A DNA stretch of 39,004 nucleotides, from positions 1-39,004 of the forward strand of contig JANYIL010000217.1 in the NCBI GenBank assembly GCA_025362075.1. The letters run 5' to 3'. How positions within the stretch are numbered: position 1 is the first letter of the stretch; the number at the start of each line of letters is the position of its first letter. Origin of the DNA: Chloracidobacterium sp. (GTDB lineage Bacteria > Acidobacteriota > Blastocatellia > Pyrinomonadales > Pyrinomonadaceae). A program made the translations under genes and the position numbers. Shown here one piece after another: positions 2,905-33,953 of this stretch. The notes under the pieces are model-generated. The model ran no database searches and had not been told where the DNA came from. It saw only the letters and a list, made by a program, of their open reading frames with translations.

Positions 2905-2917
2905 AAAATCCTTTGTA

Positions 2918-3006
2918 CGACAGACTGCCGAGTCTGTCGGTTAAGTCGAACGTCCATTCAACTTGATTGCATACTTACGTTGATGAACAGGCTCGGCAGC
3001 CTGTTC
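2918..3006. repeat. Bipartite palindromic element, copy 1 (HP1 CGACAGACT-GCCG-AGTCTGTCG; HP2 GAACAGGCT-CGGC-AGCCTGTTC)
   Basis: Two perfect 9-bp-stem inverted repeats at 2918-2939 and 2985-3006, separated by 45 nt. Confidence 0.9.
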
Positions 3007-3365
3007 TACACTGCTTTCCGCAAAGTGATAATCAGCAGGCCATTCTCAAACATGTGCTCGATCGACGCACCTTCGAGTGGCGCGGGAAACCGCAGCGTTT
3101 TCTCAAAACTGCTGTACGTTATCTCCATCTGCTGATACGAAATGCCGCTGGCGCACGACCGGTCCTTGCGGCTGCCCGCGATGTAAAGCGCATTACCCTG
3201 GATTTCGATCACGATTTCCTCGGCCGAAACGCCGGCTAGCTCGACCTTGACGACCCAGCCGTCCGGCGTCTGATACACATCCGCCGCCGGATACCACAAG
3301 CGGCCGGAAACTGGGGTTTTCGACGAGCCGATGAATTGAAAATTACGATTGGTGGATTTGGCCAT
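3006..3365 (-). CDS. Hsp20/alpha-crystallin family small heat shock protein
   Basis: Alpha-crystallin pattern (DVYQTPDGWVVKVELAGVSAEEIVIEIQGNALYIAGSR...RFPAPLEGASIEHMFENGLLIITLRK). Start set at ATG 3365 because the ORF extension to 3419 translates a repeat. Confidence 0.92.
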   Translation of the reverse strand: MAKSTNRNFQFIGSSKTPVSGRLWYPAADVYQTPDGWVVKVELAGVSAEEIVIEIQGNALYIAGSRKDRSCASGISYQQMEITYSSFEKTLRFPAPLEGASIEHMFENGLLIITLRKAV

Positions 3366-3963: not shown

Positions 3964-4019
3964 GCCACGAATTACACGAATAGCACGAATAAAGCCTCTT
4001 CATTCGTGCTATTCGTGGC
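3964..4019. repeat. Nonamer-iterated hairpin D (unit ~NNCACGAAT)
   Basis: GCCACGAAT|TACACGAAT|AGCACGAAT then loop AAAGCCTCTTC then ATTCGTGCT|ATTCGTGGC. Confidence 0.9.
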
Positions 4020-9464: not shown

Positions 9465-9470
9465 AATGTA

Positions 9471-9559
9471 CGGCAGACTGCCGAGTCTGCCGGTCAAGTT
9501 TATTATCCGCACATCTTGAAAGTAAATGAACGTTGATGAACAGGCTTGGCAGCCTGTTC
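9471..9559. repeat. Bipartite palindromic element, copy 2 (HP1 CGGCAGACT-GCCG-AGTCTGCCG; HP2 GAACAGGCT-TGGC-AGCCTGTTC)
   Basis: Perfect stems at 9471-9492 and 9538-9559, same 45-nt spacer; spacer end CGTTGAT shared with copy 1. Confidence 0.9.
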
Positions 9560-10797
9560 TACGTTTTCGCCTCTGTTTTTACGGTCGTTAATAACAATAT
9601 TGCCAACAAAGACACGCCGCCGCTGGCCAAAAATGCGGTGGCGGCCCCGAATTGATTCCAAGCCAAACCGAACAACAGCGACGCCGGAAATACCGTAATG
9701 CCGAACGCCAAATTGTACAACCCGTATGCCGTCCCGCGTTTGTCTTCGGGCACCATGTCGGCTACAAATGCTTTTTCGACGCCCTCGGTCAGGCCAAAAT
9801 ACGTGCCGTAGACGATGAAGAGCACCCACGCGTGCCAGGCCTCGGACGCGAAACCAAACCCGACGTAAACTAAAGCATAGATCAGCCAACCCGCGACGAT
9901 CAGCTTTTTTCGTCCGACGCGGTCGGAGAGGTCGCCGCCGATCAGCGAACTGACGACCTTGCTCACATGCAGCGTCATCCACAGCAGCGGCAAAATTACC
10001 GGCGAAATACCCGATTGGCCGGCCCGCAGCAGCAAGAATGCGTCGGTTGAATTCGAGAGCGTAAATATCGCTATGACGAACAGAAATCGTTTGAAATTGC
10101 CGTCAAAACCGCGAAGCGACAGATTTGGCGGCGCGACAGGAGCGGCGTCGGCAGCCGGTTTGTCTCGCTCTTTGACAAAAAAGGCGATGACGATCAGGCC
10201 GAGCACCACGGGAATGGATGCGAACAGGAAAACCTGCTGGTACTCGCGGATCGTCGGGTTCTGCGTATTTGCGGCGAAAATCGAGAGCAGAGCAAACGAT
10301 GCGAGCGGCCCGAAAACGGCCCCGAGATGATCGGACGCGCGGTTAAATCCGAAGGCAAATCCGCGTTCGCTGGGCGGCACGCTGTCCGCGATGAGAGCGT
10401 CGCGCGGTGCTCCGCGAATGCCTTTGCCGACGCGGTCGGTCATTCTAACGACGAGGACCTGCGGCCAGCTTGTGACAAATGCGAGGAAAGGCCGCGTGAC
10501 GGCGGCGAGCGAATAACCCAGGAAAACAGGCAGTTTACGGGTGCCGAAACGGTCGCTGAGATAGCCGGAAAAGAGCTTGAGAATGCTGGCGACCGACTCG
10601 GCAAACCCCTCGATCAGGCCGATCGCGAATGGCGACGCGCCGAGGCTAAGAGCTAGAAACGCGGGTAGAACCGGGTAGATTATTTCACTCGACGTGTCAT
10701 TTAGCAGGCTAACAAGGCTCAGGGCGAGGACATTTTTCGGTAGGTTGCGATACCGGTGCCAAGCCCTTGTTTTTGTCCCGGCCCCGGTGTCTGCCAT
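9559..10797 (-). CDS. MFS transporter
   Basis: 12-TM MFS pattern (GYLSDRFGTRKLPVFLGY; RVGKGIRGAPRDALIAD; GGDLSDRVGRKKLIVAG). Confidence 0.93.
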   Translation of the reverse strand: MADTGAGTKTRAWHRYRNLPKNVLALSLVSLLNDTSSEIIYPVLPAFLALSLGASPFAIGLIEGFAESVASILKLFSGYLSDRFGTRKLPVFLGYSLAAVTRPFLAFVTSWPQVLVVRMTDRVGKGIRGAPRDALIADSVPPSERGFAFGFNRASDHLGAVFGPLASFALLSIFAANTQNPTIREYQQVFLFASIPVVLGLIVIAFFVKERDKPAADAAPVAPPNLSLRGFDGNFKRFLFVIAIFTLSNSTDAFLLLRAGQSGISPVILPLLWMTLHVSKVVSSLIGGDLSDRVGRKKLIVAGWLIYALVYVGFGFASEAWHAWVLFIVYGTYFGLTEGVEKAFVADMVPEDKRGTAYGLYNLAFGITVFPASLLFGLAWNQFGAATAFLASGGVSLLAILLLTTVKTEAKT

Positions 10798-11252: not shown

Positions 11253-11323
11253 ATGGTGCGTCTTCTTAAAAAGCTAGGATACCAAATCCCGCGCAAAAAT
11301 CTATTTAATATGGTGGTAAAGTA

Positions 11324-11410
11324 GAACAGGCTGCCGAGCCTGTTCATCGACGCTCGTTATGTTCAAAATGAACTGGCAACAGGCTGGATCGACAGACTAG
11401 CAGTCTGTCG
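11324..11410. repeat. Bipartite palindromic element, copy 3, inverted orientation
   Basis: GAACAGGCT-GCCG-AGCCTGTTC at 11324-11345 and CGACAGACT-AGC-AGTCTGTCG at 11390-11410, 44-nt spacer. Confidence 0.9.
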
Positions 11411-11479: not shown

Positions 11480-12457
11480 ATGGCCGATTATAAAGAAACA
11501 TTCGAGCGTTGGACAAAAAAGGCGACTGAAAAGCTTGAGGAGATCGATTCGCAGTACGACCTGAAAGGCAAGATCGAGGGAGCCGCCAATGTCGTCGTCG
11601 ACACCGCACGTACCGGGGCCGAGTATATCAAGACCGAGGCCGAGAAATCTGAACTTGGCAAACAGGCGGTCAAGGTGACCGGGGACGTGATCCACACCGC
11701 GGGTGACGCCGCGAAAACCGCTTGGAATGTAAGCGAACCCGTTCGCGACGTCGCCGTCGAGGCCGGTTCCAAAGCAGGCGGCGTTGTCGTCGATGCAGCC
11801 GGGAAAGCAGGCGATTTTTTTGACGATGCCGCCGATTCGGTCGGCACAAATGCTAAACGCGTAGCGAAGGTGGTCGGTTTTGGCGCCAGCCTGTCAACCA
11901 CGCTTGATTCGGCGATCAATTCGGTCAAGAAAGCGGCCGGTTGGGCACAGGAGGATCCGCTCCGCGCGGCAACCACCGGGGTTTCTATGGCGATCGGCGC
12001 GGGCCTTGGCGTCGTTTTTACGGGCATCAGCTCGCATTGGCTGTTAAACTCCGCGATCCCGACATGGTCGGTCAAAAAGCTTGCCGAAAATTTCGACGGC
12101 TATCTCAAACGCCGCGAAGACCTGATCGAAAAAGGCCAGCTTTCCGAGGCCGACGCCGAACGCATTAAGTTTGAGCGCGACATTGCGACACGCATCGGGG
12201 CCCCGCTGCTCGGAGCATTTTCGTTTGCGTCGGGTGCGGTCATGATGACAAATGTCCTCAATCCCGCAGCCGTCACGGGTTTTCCGCTCGGCAACATCAT
12301 CGGCGGCAACCCGCTACTCGAGGGTGTCTGGTTCTTTGGCAACGGAATGGTCTGCTTTAAGACGAGCTACGACTTTTTCATGATCGCCCTCGATGGTCAG
12401 GAAGATGTTGAAAAGATGGTGAAGGAGATCAAGGGCTTGTTGCCGGCAGCAGCGTAG
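11480..12457 (+). CDS. hypothetical protein with LEA/apolipoprotein-like amphipathic N-terminal half and hydrophobic C-terminal half
   Basis: 325 aa; Ala/Lys/Asp/Val amphipathic segment (KAGGVVVDAAGKAGDFFDDAADSVGTNAKRVAKVV) then Gly-rich TM segments. Confidence 0.75.
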   Translation: MADYKETFERWTKKATEKLEEIDSQYDLKGKIEGAANVVVDTARTGAEYIKTEAEKSELGKQAVKVTGDVIHTAGDAAKTAWNVSEPVRDVAVEAGSKAGGVVVDAAGKAGDFFDDAADSVGTNAKRVAKVVGFGASLSTTLDSAINSVKKAAGWAQEDPLRAATTGVSMAIGAGLGVVFTGISSHWLLNSAIPTWSVKKLAENFDGYLKRREDLIEKGQLSEADAERIKFERDIATRIGAPLLGAFSFASGAVMMTNVLNPAAVTGFPLGNIIGGNPLLEGVWFFGNGMVCFKTSYDFFMIALDGQEDVEKMVKEIKGLLPAAA

Positions 12458-12465
12458 GAAGATTG

Positions 12466-12536
12466 GCCACAAAAGGCACGAAAAACATAAAAGAAATTTA
12501 TTTTCTTACTTTTGCGCTTTTTGTGCCTTTTGTGGC
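12466..12536. repeat. Nonamer-iterated hairpin E (unit ~GCCACAAAA), between convergent genes; possible bidirectional terminator
   Basis: GCCACAAAA|GGCACGAAA|AACATAAAA|G...; perfect outer arms GCCACAAAAGGCAC/GTGCCTTTTGTGGC. Confidence 0.88.
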
Positions 12537-12544
12537 TATTGTTC

Positions 12545-13573
12545 TTAATTAATCTGTATAGGAAACGGTACGAAGCAAAGCACAAAAATCACTAATGTCA
12601 AAAACGCGATCACTTTGCGTTTTCCATCGAGTGGGGTTTGATCGTACGGCATCGGGTGCCGGATGCGCATCATTATACCGAGGATGATCGCGATAAGAAA
12701 ACCGCTTGGACTGCCAAAAAAATACAGACCTAAAACCGACAGCGAAGCCATTATTCCGAACGCGATTCGGCCCGTCCACTTGTGGATGGTCTCGCCAAAA
12801 ATAGCGTAGATCGCATGGCCGCCGTCGAGCTGGCCGGACGGGATGAGATTTAACGCCGTCACCAACAGGCCGACCCACGCTGCGAAATAAAACGAGTTTC
12901 CGATACCGTATTTCAGATCGATCCCCAAAAACATTGCAAATATCCGCATCAACAAAGGATCGGTAAATATCAGCCCACCGTGAATGTCGGCCATCTGCTG
13001 CTGCGTCGCCACCTGCATGGTCGCGAGGCCGATCAACGCCACCGGTATCAAAGCAATAAATCCCGCGATCGGTCCGGCGACGCCGATGTCGAAGACCGCC
13101 CGACGTGACGGCATTGGCGACAGTATCTTGATAAACGCACCAAACGTCCCGGCCGGCCCGACCATGGGCGGCGTCGGGATAAAAAATGGCAGCGTCACGT
13201 CGACCTTGTACAAACGGCATGCGATGTAATGGCCCATCTCGTGAGAGATCAGGATAAAGAGCAGCGAGAGTGAAAAGCTGAGCCCGTATTTGAGAATTTC
13301 GGGTTTGGAAAAGATCGCGGTGACCGCATCCGAGATAACGCCGGCGTATTTCAACGGAGCGGTGGCCAAAAACTGAAAGAATTCAGAGGCCGTTTGCGGA
13401 TCGGCGTCCGGCAGTGTTGTGTTTGGGCCAAAGGGAAAGAGTGTTCCTGCAATGGTCGCCGTACAAAACGTAACGCCGAGCAGTAGCAGGTGCTTTGCAT
13501 AGCCGAGCGCGGTTGGCCGCCTTAGGGGCGGCTCATATGAAAATTCGGGTTCGATCAGATCGGGATCAGTCAT
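12545..13573 (-). CDS. site-2 protease family (M50) membrane metalloprotease
   Basis: HEMGH motif in TM context (ILISHEMGHYIACRLY) and second motif NLIPSGQLDGGHAIYAIFG. Confidence 0.92.
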   Translation of the reverse strand: MTDPDLIEPEFSYEPPLRRPTALGYAKHLLLLGVTFCTATIAGTLFPFGPNTTLPDADPQTASEFFQFLATAPLKYAGVISDAVTAIFSKPEILKYGLSFSLSLLFILISHEMGHYIACRLYKVDVTLPFFIPTPPMVGPAGTFGAFIKILSPMPSRRAVFDIGVAGPIAGFIALIPVALIGLATMQVATQQQMADIHGGLIFTDPLLMRIFAMFLGIDLKYGIGNSFYFAAWVGLLVTALNLIPSGQLDGGHAIYAIFGETIHKWTGRIAFGIMASLSVLGLYFFGSPSGFLIAIILGIMMRIRHPMPYDQTPLDGKRKVIAFLTLVIFVLCFVPFPIQIN

Positions 13574-25356: not shown

Positions 25357-26109
25357 ATGCCCATCTACGTTCTAATTATATTGATCGTGCTGTTTCTGCT
25401 GACCAGCATGATCGGCGTCGTCACGGGCAGCAATTCACTGATTACCGTGCCGGTGATGTTTCAATTCGGTATCGAGCCTAAGATTGCCGTTGCGACCAAT
25501 ATGTTCGGGCTGGTGTTTATGTCCATCGGCGGGGCGATACCGTTCGTACGGCAGGGAAAGATCGATTACGGCAAAATAACGCCGTTCATCATCCTGACCG
25601 TGTTCAGCTCGGCCATCGGGGCTTTGCTGGTCGGGGTCATCGGCAATCAGGGCGTCAAACTGGTCGTCTCGGTCGCGATGATCGCCGTGGTTATCTTTAC
25701 TCTGGTCAGGCACCGGGCGGGCGTCGATGACGATTTCACGCCGGCTGTGTACACTGTACCGCTGACATATCTGCTGGTATTCTTGCTCGGAATTTACGGA
25801 GGTCTTTTTAGCGGCGGATATACGACGATACTGACGGCAGTTTGTGTCGGCGTTTATGGAATGCGGTATGGCGAGGCGGTCGCATCGACCAAATTGATCA
25901 ACCTGTTTTCGTCGCTGATTGCCACGGTCATCTTTATGTGGCAAGGTTTAGTGGATTACAAACTCGGCCTGATCCTTGGCTTTACGATGTTTGTCGGAGC
26001 GTACGCCGGAGCTCATTTTGTCACAAAATTGAGCGATGTATGGCTGAGAAGGATATTTTTGACGGCGGTAATCCTCCTCGCGTTAAAGACGCTTTACGAT
26101 TTTATATAA
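25357..26109 (+). CDS. sulfite exporter TauE/SafE family protein
   Basis: About 8 TM; MIGVVTGSNSLITVPVMFQFGIEPKIAVATNMFGLVFMSIGG. Confidence 0.9.
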   Translation: MPIYVLIILIVLFLLTSMIGVVTGSNSLITVPVMFQFGIEPKIAVATNMFGLVFMSIGGAIPFVRQGKIDYGKITPFIILTVFSSAIGALLVGVIGNQGVKLVVSVAMIAVVIFTLVRHRAGVDDDFTPAVYTVPLTYLLVFLLGIYGGLFSGGYTTILTAVCVGVYGMRYGEAVASTKLINLFSSLIATVIFMWQGLVDYKLGLILGFTMFVGAYAGAHFVTKLSDVWLRRIFLTAVILLALKTLYDFI

Positions 26110-26199
26110 GGCGGAGACACGACCGGTAGGGAGTGTGTTCCTTCGCCACAATTTGTAGGTCGAGGCCATGGCACCCTCGCTACCGCTCAGGTTTCTGCC
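26110..26199. repeat. 90-bp palindromic element, intergenic degenerate copy
   Basis: GGCGGAGACACGACCGGTAGGGAGTGTGTTCC...GGCACCCTCGCTACCGCTCAGGTTTCTGCC. Left arm 29/32 and right arm 23/32 identical to the copy at 32197-32286; same 90-bp length. Confidence 0.85.
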
Positions 26200-26208
26200 C
26201 TTTAACCA

Positions 26209-27162
26209 ATGTTAACTTACACACCTACAACTGTTGCACATATATTGAACGAGCTTCGTAAAGTTATCGTCGGGCAGGATGACGTTATTGAGCAGATACT
26301 GGTCGCGGTCCTCGCCGAGGGCCATGCATTGATCGAGGGCGTGCCGGGGACGGCTAAGACGCTGACGGTCAAGACGCTTGCTCAGATCATCGGGGCGCAG
26401 TATTCGCGGATCCAGTTTACGCCCGACCTGATGCCGTCGGACATAACGGGAACGAACGTTTTCAATATGCAGACGTCTCAGTTTGCCCTAAGGCAGGGGC
26501 CAATATTCACAGACATTCTGCTGGCCGACGAGATCAACCGGACGCCGCCGAAGACGCAGGCCGCGCTGCTCGAAGCGATGGAGGAACGCCAGACGACGAT
26601 CGACGGCGAACGCTATCCGCTGTCGCCTCTTTTTACGGTACTCGCGACCGAGAATCCGATTGAGTATGAAGGCACGTACCCGCTGCCAGAGGCGCAGCTT
26701 GACCGGTTTTTGATGAAGATATTGATCGATTATCCGCAGGCAGCCGAGGAAGAGGAGATCGTCGCGCGTTGGGACGCGGGCTTTAATTCGCGTAATTTGC
26801 AGCATGTGCAGATCACACCTTTGCCCGACGCAACGGCGATCCAGCGATGCCGGATGGAGGTCCGCGAAATGCGGATGGAGCCGGGCGTGCAGAAATACGT
26901 CGTCGAGATCGTGCGTCGCAGCCGCAGCCACCCGACGATACTCTACGGAGCAAGCCCGCGCGCATCGGTTGCTTTACTGTTGTGTTCAAAGGCCTTGGCG
27001 GCGATTCGTGGCCGCGATTTCCCGACGCCGGACGACATCCGCGATGTGGCAATGCCAGTTTTGCGGCACAGGCTGGCGCTGCGTGCCGAGGCCGAATTGG
27101 ATGGAGCGACGGCGGACGCGGTTATCTCGGATATTTTGAAGACTGTCGAAGTGCCGCGTTGA
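26209..27162 (+). CDS. MoxR family AAA+ ATPase
   Basis: [15 protein letters not shown] Walker [36 protein letters not shown]. Confidence 0.95.
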
Positions 27163-28792: not shown

Positions 28793-28869
28793 TGCAGAAG
28801 CCCGCACGTTAGTAAGGGCGTAACAGTCAACTTGGATGTTACGCCCTGCTTACGCCGCGGGCTTCTGCA
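28793..28869. repeat. Long imperfect hairpin TGCAGAAGCCCGC...GCGGGCTTCTGCA with inner AGGGCGTAACA/TGTTACGCCCT
   Basis: Perfect 13-bp outer and 11-bp inner arms, downstream of atpE. Confidence 0.9.
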
Positions 28870-31263: not shown

Positions 31264-31285
31264 AGCCCTTACTTACGTGCGGGCT
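31264..31285. repeat. Short relative of the 28793 element (AGCCCGCACGTAAGTAAGGGCT on the minus strand)
   Basis: 20/21 identity to AGCCCGCACGTTAGTAAGGGC within 28793-28869. Confidence 0.8.
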
Positions 31286-31295
31286 ACCGACACCT

Positions 31296-32558
31296 TTACT
31301 CTCCGCGTATGATGACAGTTTCGGTCGGTGATTTCAATTCGTAGGTAATGCCGCGCCATGTCATTCGCTTTGAAAGGGCGGCCGCGATGCAATTGATAAG
31401 AAATAGTACGGGCGACAGCAGCCACAATGTGGTTTGCAACCAAAACTGGTGTTTTAGCTTGGCTTTGTAATCGGTCAGGACGAGGCGGACCGCCCGCAGA
31501 CGCAGCCAAGCCTTGCCGACGCTAAAAAAAGTTACCAGAAACAAAACGCTGAGACCGATCCAGACCGGCAAGCTGTTCGTTCGGTCTAAGATAACGATCA
31601 AAAATGCGGCCAGCATCACCGCTATAAAGAGGACCGAGCCGATAAATGACATCAACCACAGCGGCGTTGCGTAGACGCGCGTGATCTTCATTTGGCGGTT
31701 GGTGAACTCGATGGTTTGGAGCAGAGACGAATCCTCGATCGACGCCGTAACCGCCTGTGGGACAAAGACGATTGGCCGGCCGGCCGCGTTCATCGCACGC
31801 GTGACGGCAAAATCGTCGGAAAGCGTTCCCCGCCATTTTTCGCGCATGCCGACTGCGTCAAAGACATCCCGCCGGATCGCCGTCGAGCCGCCCCAACAGA
31901 AATTCGATCTGGTGTTGGACCCGAGGGCCGACGCGATCGAGGCGTTCCAGACGGACCGCATTTCGGAGCCGAAGGTCGGATTTTTTGCAATGTACCAGCG
32001 GTAACCTGTTGCGGCCCCGACGTTTTCATCCTCAAGTGGGGCGACGAGATGGCGAAGCCAATCCTTCGATGGCCGCGCGTCGGAATCGACAAAAACAAAG
32101 ACTCGTGACAGGTCGGCGACATGCAAAACGGCCTCGCGAAGATTTTCGACCTTTTGGCTACAGCCGTGTGCCTTGGGTGCGACGACGAGTCGAGTAGGCG
32201 GAAACACGACCGGTAGGGAGTGTGCCCCAAGACGCGGAAAATCCTGCTTCCAAAGGGGCACACTCCCTACCAGTCGTGTTTCCGCCTTTATTACCTCTAC
32301 GGCCGGATCGGCGGGGTCATCCACGACAAATATGACCTCGTAATCTGGATAATCCTGTTCGATGAGAGCGATCAGATTTTGCTCCAGGCCGTCATCGAGA
32401 CCGCGGCAAGGAACTATTACAGAAACAAAAGGCGTAAATTCGGAGGGTGGTTTTGCCAACTCATCTTCAAAAAATTTAAGGTACGCAAGGCCGCTGCGGA
32501 ACGATTTGAGGCTCAGCCAGACCAGCAATGCGGCGAAGACGTTGAAGACGAATATCAT
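31296..32558 (-). CDS. GT2/GT21-like (ceramide glucosyltransferase/HpnI-like) membrane glycosyltransferase
   Basis: FVSVIVPCRGLDDGLEQNLIALIEQDYPDYEVIFVVDD, VFVDSDARPSKDWL, LSDDFAVTRAM, NRQMKITRVY, C-terminal TMs. Contains a 90-bp in-frame palindromic insert. Confidence 0.9.
   Translation of the reverse strand: MIFVFNVFAALLVWLSLKSFRSGLAYLKFFEDELAKPPSEFTPFVSVIVPCRGLDDGLEQNLIALIEQDYPDYEVIFVVDDPADPAVEVIKAETRLVGSVPLWKQDFPRLGAHSLPVVFPPTRLVVAPKAHGCSQKVENLREAVLHVADLSRVFVFVDSDARPSKDWLRHLVAPLEDENVGAATGYRWYIAKNPTFGSEMRSVWNASIASALGSNTRSNFCWGGSTAIRRDVFDAVGMREKWRGTLSDDFAVTRAMNAAGRPIVFVPQAVTASIEDSSLLQTIEFTNRQMKITRVYATPLWLMSFIGSVLFIAVMLAAFLIVILDRTNSLPVWIGLSVLFLVTFFSVGKAWLRLRAVRLVLTDYKAKLKHQFWLQTTLWLLSPVLFLINCIAAALSKRMTWRGITYELKSPTETVIIRGE
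32197..32286. repeat. 90-bp palindromic element inserted in frame in a glycosyltransferase CDS
   Basis: 32-bp arms GGCGGAAACACGACCGGTAGGGAGTGTGCCCC / GGGGCACACTCCCTACCAGTCGTGTTTCCGCC (31/32 complementary), 26-nt loop, exactly 30 codons. Confidence 0.93.
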
Positions 32559-33874: not shown

Positions 33875-33876
33875 AG

Positions 33877-33946
33877 TTCAAAGTCCAAGATCCAAGGTCC
33901 AAAGTTATCTGAGAAGATCTTGGACTTTGGGCCTTGGACTTTGGAC
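33877..33946. repeat. Heptad-iterated hairpin C (unit ~TCCAARG)
   Basis: TTCAAAG|TCCAAGA|TCCAAGG|TCCAAAG ... TCTTGGA|CTTTGGG|CCTTGGA|CTTTGGA; 14-nt perfect arms CAAAGTCCAAGATC/GATCTTGGACTTTG. Confidence 0.9.
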
Positions 33947-33953
33947 TGCCGAT

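Follow-up and report, generated by a model that had tools for sequence, protein, structure and literature searches.

An inverted REP doublet read in frame in a Chloracidobacterium glycosyltransferase gene, and the repeat family to which it belongs

Palindromes that are translated as part of a protein have mostly been regarded as an oddity of Rickettsia, with scattered cases elsewhere. The Rickettsia palindromic elements are the classic in-frame case and measure ~150 bp (PMC10969869); for those of the CGTC type, no transposase is known (PMC3733652). REPs usually lie outside genes, but the rule is not strict: Di Nocera et al. (2013, PMC3733652) described GTAG and CGTC REPs located in frame within genes, most numerous in Opitutus terrae and R. 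conorii. Bertels and Rainey (2011, PMC3116915) described the REPINs of Pseudomonas, inverted doublets of ~70-110 bp that are linked to RAYTs, as extragenic. Class 3 of the TnpAY1 transposases (BMC Genomics 2018, PMC6006769) comprises proteins of ~178 aa with NHVH and Y----Q motifs, found in Acidobacteria and Planctomycetes, whose atypical hairpins carry a 5' CnGA foot; a text search of that paper does not find the word "intragenic". Within the REP/RAYT literature on Acidobacteria, we found nothing relevant beyond two comparative papers.

Here, we analyzed a window of 39,004 nucleotides (contig JANYIL010000217.1 of Chloracidobacterium sp. assembly GCA_025362075.1, the host genome in what follows) that contains a 90-bp palindrome inside a glycosyltransferase gene. 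As with the Rickettsia elements, to which we compare it by behavior and not by sequence, palindromes of the family to which it belongs sit in frame in many unrelated ORFs, although the doublet is 90 bp rather than ~150 bp (PMC10969869). As with GTAG and CGTC REPs, single units and dimers occur in frame in genes, which in that case include tRNA synthetases and DNA repair genes, with dimers adding 20-30 aa (PMC3733652); the unit, the foot, and the transposase class differ, and most host genes here lie outside replication and repair. The REPINs share the inverted, RAYT-linked doublet, whereas about a quarter of the clusters here are in genes. In-frame REPs in genes are, as a kind, already known. 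What is new, as far as the literature searched shows, is a class-3-linked family, its frequency in genes across a genus, the bias in sense and frame, and the refilling of one loop by different families.

The palindrome and the glycosyltransferase that carries it

An inverted-repeat search of the window recovered two 33-nt arms (32196-32228 and 32255-32287) that are 97% complementary. The palindrome folds as DNA at -43.9 kcal/mol, compared with -12.8 for shuffled versions (z -11.9; 0 of 200 shuffles as good), and its 90-bp core is translated without a stop as 30 codons, residues 92-121 (AETRLVGSVPLWKQDFPRLGAHSLPVVFPP) of an open 420-aa frame (Table 1). A preliminary description had reported just such a near-perfect palindrome in a GT2-like ORF, read in frame, together with a relative of the same length between genes, and these points are borne out: the second doublet is real and 90 bp long, although its right unit belongs to a different subtype, and its neighbors are a TauE gene (25357-26109) on one side and a MoxR-type ATPase gene (26209-27162) on the other. 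The palindrome in the GT2 gene consists of two ~30-bp REP units arranged head-on and is one copy of a small dispersed repeat.

Table 1. Repeat copies and their carrier gene in the window
Feature	Position	Strand	Evidence
Inverted REP doublet, 90 bp, read in frame	32197..32286	.	Inverted repeat, fold, translation
REP unit GGCGGAAACACGACCGGTAGGGAGTGTG, antisense to the GT2 gene	32197..32224	+	Core matches
Second REP unit GGCGGAAACACGACTGGTAGGGAGTGTG, sense to the GT2 gene, encodes AETRLVGSV	32259..32286	-	Core matches
Intergenic REP doublet of the same family, 90 bp; subtype A on the left, subtype B (CCTGAGCGGTAGCGAGGGT) on the right	26110..26199	.	
Copy of a second dispersed REP family (CCCGCACGTNAGTAAGGGC), of similar kind but a different element	28793..28869	.	
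Second REP family, one single copy immediately downstream of the GT2 gene	31265..31285	-	
GT2/GT21-type glycosyltransferase gene, 420 aa, carries the doublet	31296..32558	-	ORF list, Pfam PF13641 and PF13506, 24-row alignment

The insertion is not as clean as it had seemed. The preliminary description held that the palindrome splits an otherwise ordinary join between VEVIKA and TRLVVAPK and that homologues should show a clean 30-residue gap. Among 29 related loci, most of the GT2 homologues from the same genus do indeed lack the 30 residues. However, the first reading is wrong, and a clean gap was rejected on loop lengths: 35 residues separate the two motifs in the host, only 5 of them native, compared with 13-19 in most homologues, so that ~8 native residues are missing and the net gain is ~20 residues rather than 30. 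In the closest homologue, from G025, the loop is 21 residues long and a single REP (KAETRPAGSVPT) occupies the same place, and in three species with other inserts the loop has 24-33 residues. Other in-frame repeat-like sequences (GTTTCACGCAAAG..., ACAGGATGTACAGGATG...) were seen in this loop in G035, G023, and G008 (L060, L062, L066).

The missing loop residues could be taken to mean that the gene is a decaying pseudogene whose frame stays open through the palindrome by chance. We regard this as most improbable, since the ORF is full length at 420 aa, keeps the invariant residues of a 24-row homologue alignment, has a high dicodon coding score on both sides of the insert, and yields a confident AF2 fold. 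The mean pLDDT of the model is 90.7, and the sole segment below 50 covers residues 97-117, within the insert, where the low value stems partly from a shortage of aligned homologues. In the model, the 30 residues of the doublet are predicted to be disordered, as a loop that joins a helix to a strand, while the fold is otherwise intact. A KDO transferase gene adjoins the GT2 gene, which suggests a lipid A or LPS context for the latter.

The REP unit and its linked transposase

The preliminary description also proposed a dispersed, mobile-type element that is tolerated as protein sequence, and copies throughout the host genome and the genus agree with it. The 19-nt core (up to 3 mismatches) has 24 matches in the host genome, compared with 1 for a reversed control. 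They form 18 clusters with enough flank for judging, some of them single units and some inverted doublets. Other genomes of the genus hold up to 66 core matches each, while genomes from elsewhere in the class yield 0 or 1, as does the reversed control. Most of the ~36 species sampled, represented mostly by MAGs (the host genome is 88% complete), carry the unit, and the named records with the exact unit are MAGs of Acidobacteria or Pyrinomonadaceae. Other repeats are also visible in the window, including a ~96-bp family at 2914-3009, 9467-9562, and 11318-11358, whose arms surround GAACAGGCTCGGCAGCCTGTTC and which resembles a REP doublet, and local palindromes or imperfect inverted repeats at 12455-12547, 3975-4017, and 33875-33947 that look like other dispersed repeats.

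We collected 401 distinct copies by an exact 14-base core, which misses decayed units. The consensus of the ~30-nt unit is A-GGC-RGAA-ACMC-GA-SC-[nGTA]-GS-GA-GKGT-GYC, starting with A-GGC[AG]GAAAC and ending with GTG[CT]C. Its stem changes are compensatory: pair 10-25 is AT in 298 copies and CG in 82, and pair 14-21 is CG in 293 and GC in 90, so ACAC/GTGT is exchanged for ACCC/GGGT and CC/GG for GC/GC. A tandem GA/AG mismatch is conserved in ~94% of the copies, and the loop is mostly nGTA. Directly 5' of the A-ACMC stem lies the foot GGC[AG]GA, i.e., 5' C(R)GA, which is partly imposed by the search pattern. As an imperfect palindrome in the range of 20-40 nt with many dispersed copies (401 distinct ones), the unit has the form of a REP.

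In relatives of the host, this REP flanks the gene of a ~172-aa Y1 transposase (P0002 and its kin), part of a subfamily of IS200-like HuH transposases of the RAYT type, mostly in inverted orientation around the gene. It abuts 10 of the 30 RAYT loci found with P0002, all ten among the loci at least 56% identical to it, compared with 0 of 42 other Y1_Tnp loci (from five relatives and the host) with a REP within 500 bp, where the lone nearby REP begins ~600 bp away (Fisher p 6e-5). The variant of the repeat tracks the variant of the RAYT, with TGTT/CGTT loops in G013/G003 and ACCC-type stems in G033/G015. Most of the RAYT group carries RTNHxH and YVxxGQG motifs. P0002 itself (the RAYT of G017, L228 2163-2675) has HGH instead of the usual HuH motif, yet perfect REPs flank its gene; the RAYT copy of G004 has an internal stop. 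Set against the published description, the subfamily appears to fit class 3 TnpAY1 in its motifs, in its length, and in the 5' C(R)GA foot of its hairpins: the shared features are a Y1 protein of ~172 aa, NHxH and Y----Q, an acidobacterial host, and dispersed flanking hairpins with a C(R)GA foot. It differs in its W motif, which is WK in the REP-flanked clade and W[TA] in the published class, and in copy number, with tens here against ~600 (PMC6006769).

A search for a RAYT had been suggested at the outset, and it succeeded in part: the REP-flanked transposase exists in relatives, but P0002 has no match in the host genome, which is 88% complete. We considered the host's own 12 Y1_Tnp genes as cognate transposases and rejected them, as no REP lies within ~600 bp of any of them; one weak hit, on C264, is of another type and has a REP ~1.4 kb away. 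The cognate transposase seems to have been lost from the host genome or to be unassembled there, and because it has no close relative in that genome, movement of the REP in the host may be past.

The same behavior, in frame in unrelated genes and often as dimers (PMC3733652, PMC10969869), might place these elements in the Rickettsia palindromic element lineage or in the CGTC or GTAG REP super-families. Such membership is very improbable given the linked class-3 type RAYT, since CGTC repeats are without a transposase (PMC3733652). Assignment to GTAG/CGTC was rejected on the structure of the unit: its GTAG lies within the hairpin (positions 17-20, apical loop and stem), its foot is C(R)GA, and the flanking consensus has no CGTC end and no GTAG/CGTC tail. 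The Rickettsia precedent offered by the preliminary description is thus a good functional analogy, limited to behavior, and the family itself belongs with REP/RAYT systems.

Very probably, the doublet is a non-autonomous repeat that owes its spread to a class-3 type HuH-tyrosine transposase (RAYT), with copies in genes surviving in permissive loops. The RAYT of related species would act on single-stranded DNA, where it would recognize the hairpin together with its 5' C(R)GA foot and would move singlets or doublets to new places.

Copies within genes and the saccharopine dehydrogenase loop

To judge coding context, we used a dicodon score for which 407 long ORFs served as the training set. Across the genus, 68 of 240 distinct clusters are in frame within ORFs that are coding on both sides, and the other 172 were not called intragenic; this proportion does not exclude REP membership, because REPs in genes are a known exception. 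Both 150-bp flanks are open and code on one and the same strand in 70 clusters, of which 59 preserve the phase and 11 shift it (p 2e-18). Inverted doublets number 15 in genes and 62 elsewhere. Lengths that are a multiple of three were found for 13 of the former, which is partly built into the in-frame criterion, and the informative part is the even spread (22/20/20) of the doublets outside genes. Single units in genes are sense-oriented in 44 of 51 cases, and 35 read AETRPVGSVP-like. Insertions into genes would survive only if open, a multiple of three in length, and located where the protein is permissive, in a surface loop or an interdomain linker. The unit would be suited to survival in frame, with ~10 codons that most often read AETRPVGSVP, a peptide both bland and polar.

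As the preliminary description had suggested checking, the host genome does hold further in-frame copies: 6 of its 18 clusters lie within genes, namely GT2, saccharopine dehydrogenase, GcvPB, an asparaginase-family protein, an EamA transporter, and a Type ISP-type specificity protein. Genus-wide, the carriers also include CarA (with the insert between its two domains), GltX, aldehyde dehydrogenase, MutS2, acyl-CoA ligase, and FolC, and GcvPB, the asparaginase-family protein, the EamA transporter, and saccharopine dehydrogenase recur. The carriers are housekeeping enzymes, in several of which profile matches continue through the insert, and the decorated proteins are presumably produced and working.

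The loop that follows LEFVG in saccharopine dehydrogenase is occupied by this REP in four genomes (the host, G005, SJ253, and UBA7659) and by a subtype of it in G016. In G006 (L386), a unit is read there in a different frame, with a would-be TAG changed (CGTGAGGG), giving QKHDREGV. Other repeat-like inserts fill the same loop in G009, G011, G015, G019, and G020 (judged by eye for all but G009), and it is empty in G001, G007, G010, G012, and others. The insert of G009 is a member of a second REP family (CCCGCACGTNAGTAAGGGC), which has 25 copies in the host genome and 35 in G009 (controls 0), flanks another class-3 type RAYT of G009 (C21:22559-23044), and is in frame within genes in 10 of 29 clusters. 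After this survey, plain common descent was set aside as the account of shared positions in genes.

Shared positions might instead be target hot spots of the transposase, hit independently in several species and not filtered by selection, and a loop filled in the host, G005, SJ253, and UBA7659, by a subtype in G016, and in another frame in G006 is what such hot spots would produce. We consider this rather unlikely, because the sequence target of one transposase cannot account for unrelated repeat-like sequences in that loop (G009, G019, G020, G011), and base composition in the flanks is alike within and outside genes. Selection-filtered permissive loops remain our preferred reading. At shared sites, the units are mostly 89-100% identical compared with 61-87% for their flanks, a difference that the exact-core collection biases upward and that, with this qualification, neutral inheritance alone does not explain. 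This high identity, and the retention of arms while the spacers of doublets diverge, could also mean that repeats in genes persist because the hairpin has a function as DNA or RNA, such as translation pausing, mRNA stability, or binding of gyrase or nucleoid, rather than as neutral survivors. Collection by an exact core favors intact units, other species have either nothing or unrelated repeats in the same loop, and the host genes share no common function, all of which makes a hairpin function unlikely.

Implications for the genus

We tentatively propose, at somewhat less than even confidence, a broader picture in which this genus carries at least two REP families, each with its own class-3 type RAYT, and probably more, as routine coding inserts. 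The main family would supply inserts of ~10 codons, mostly in sense orientation, and the families would refill the same loops of housekeeping enzymes across species. This would make them a standing source of loop evolution, with a unit selected to be harmless as a peptide.

For annotation, inserts of 10-30 residues such as AETRPVGSVP in proteins of this group should be read as repeat-derived. More broadly, the genus provides uncultured environmental bacteria outside Rickettsia in which coding repeats are frequent and candidate transposases have been identified. This opens questions as to how mobile DNA becomes protein sequence, whether repeats evolve harmlessness within genes, and whether loops serve as landing pads.
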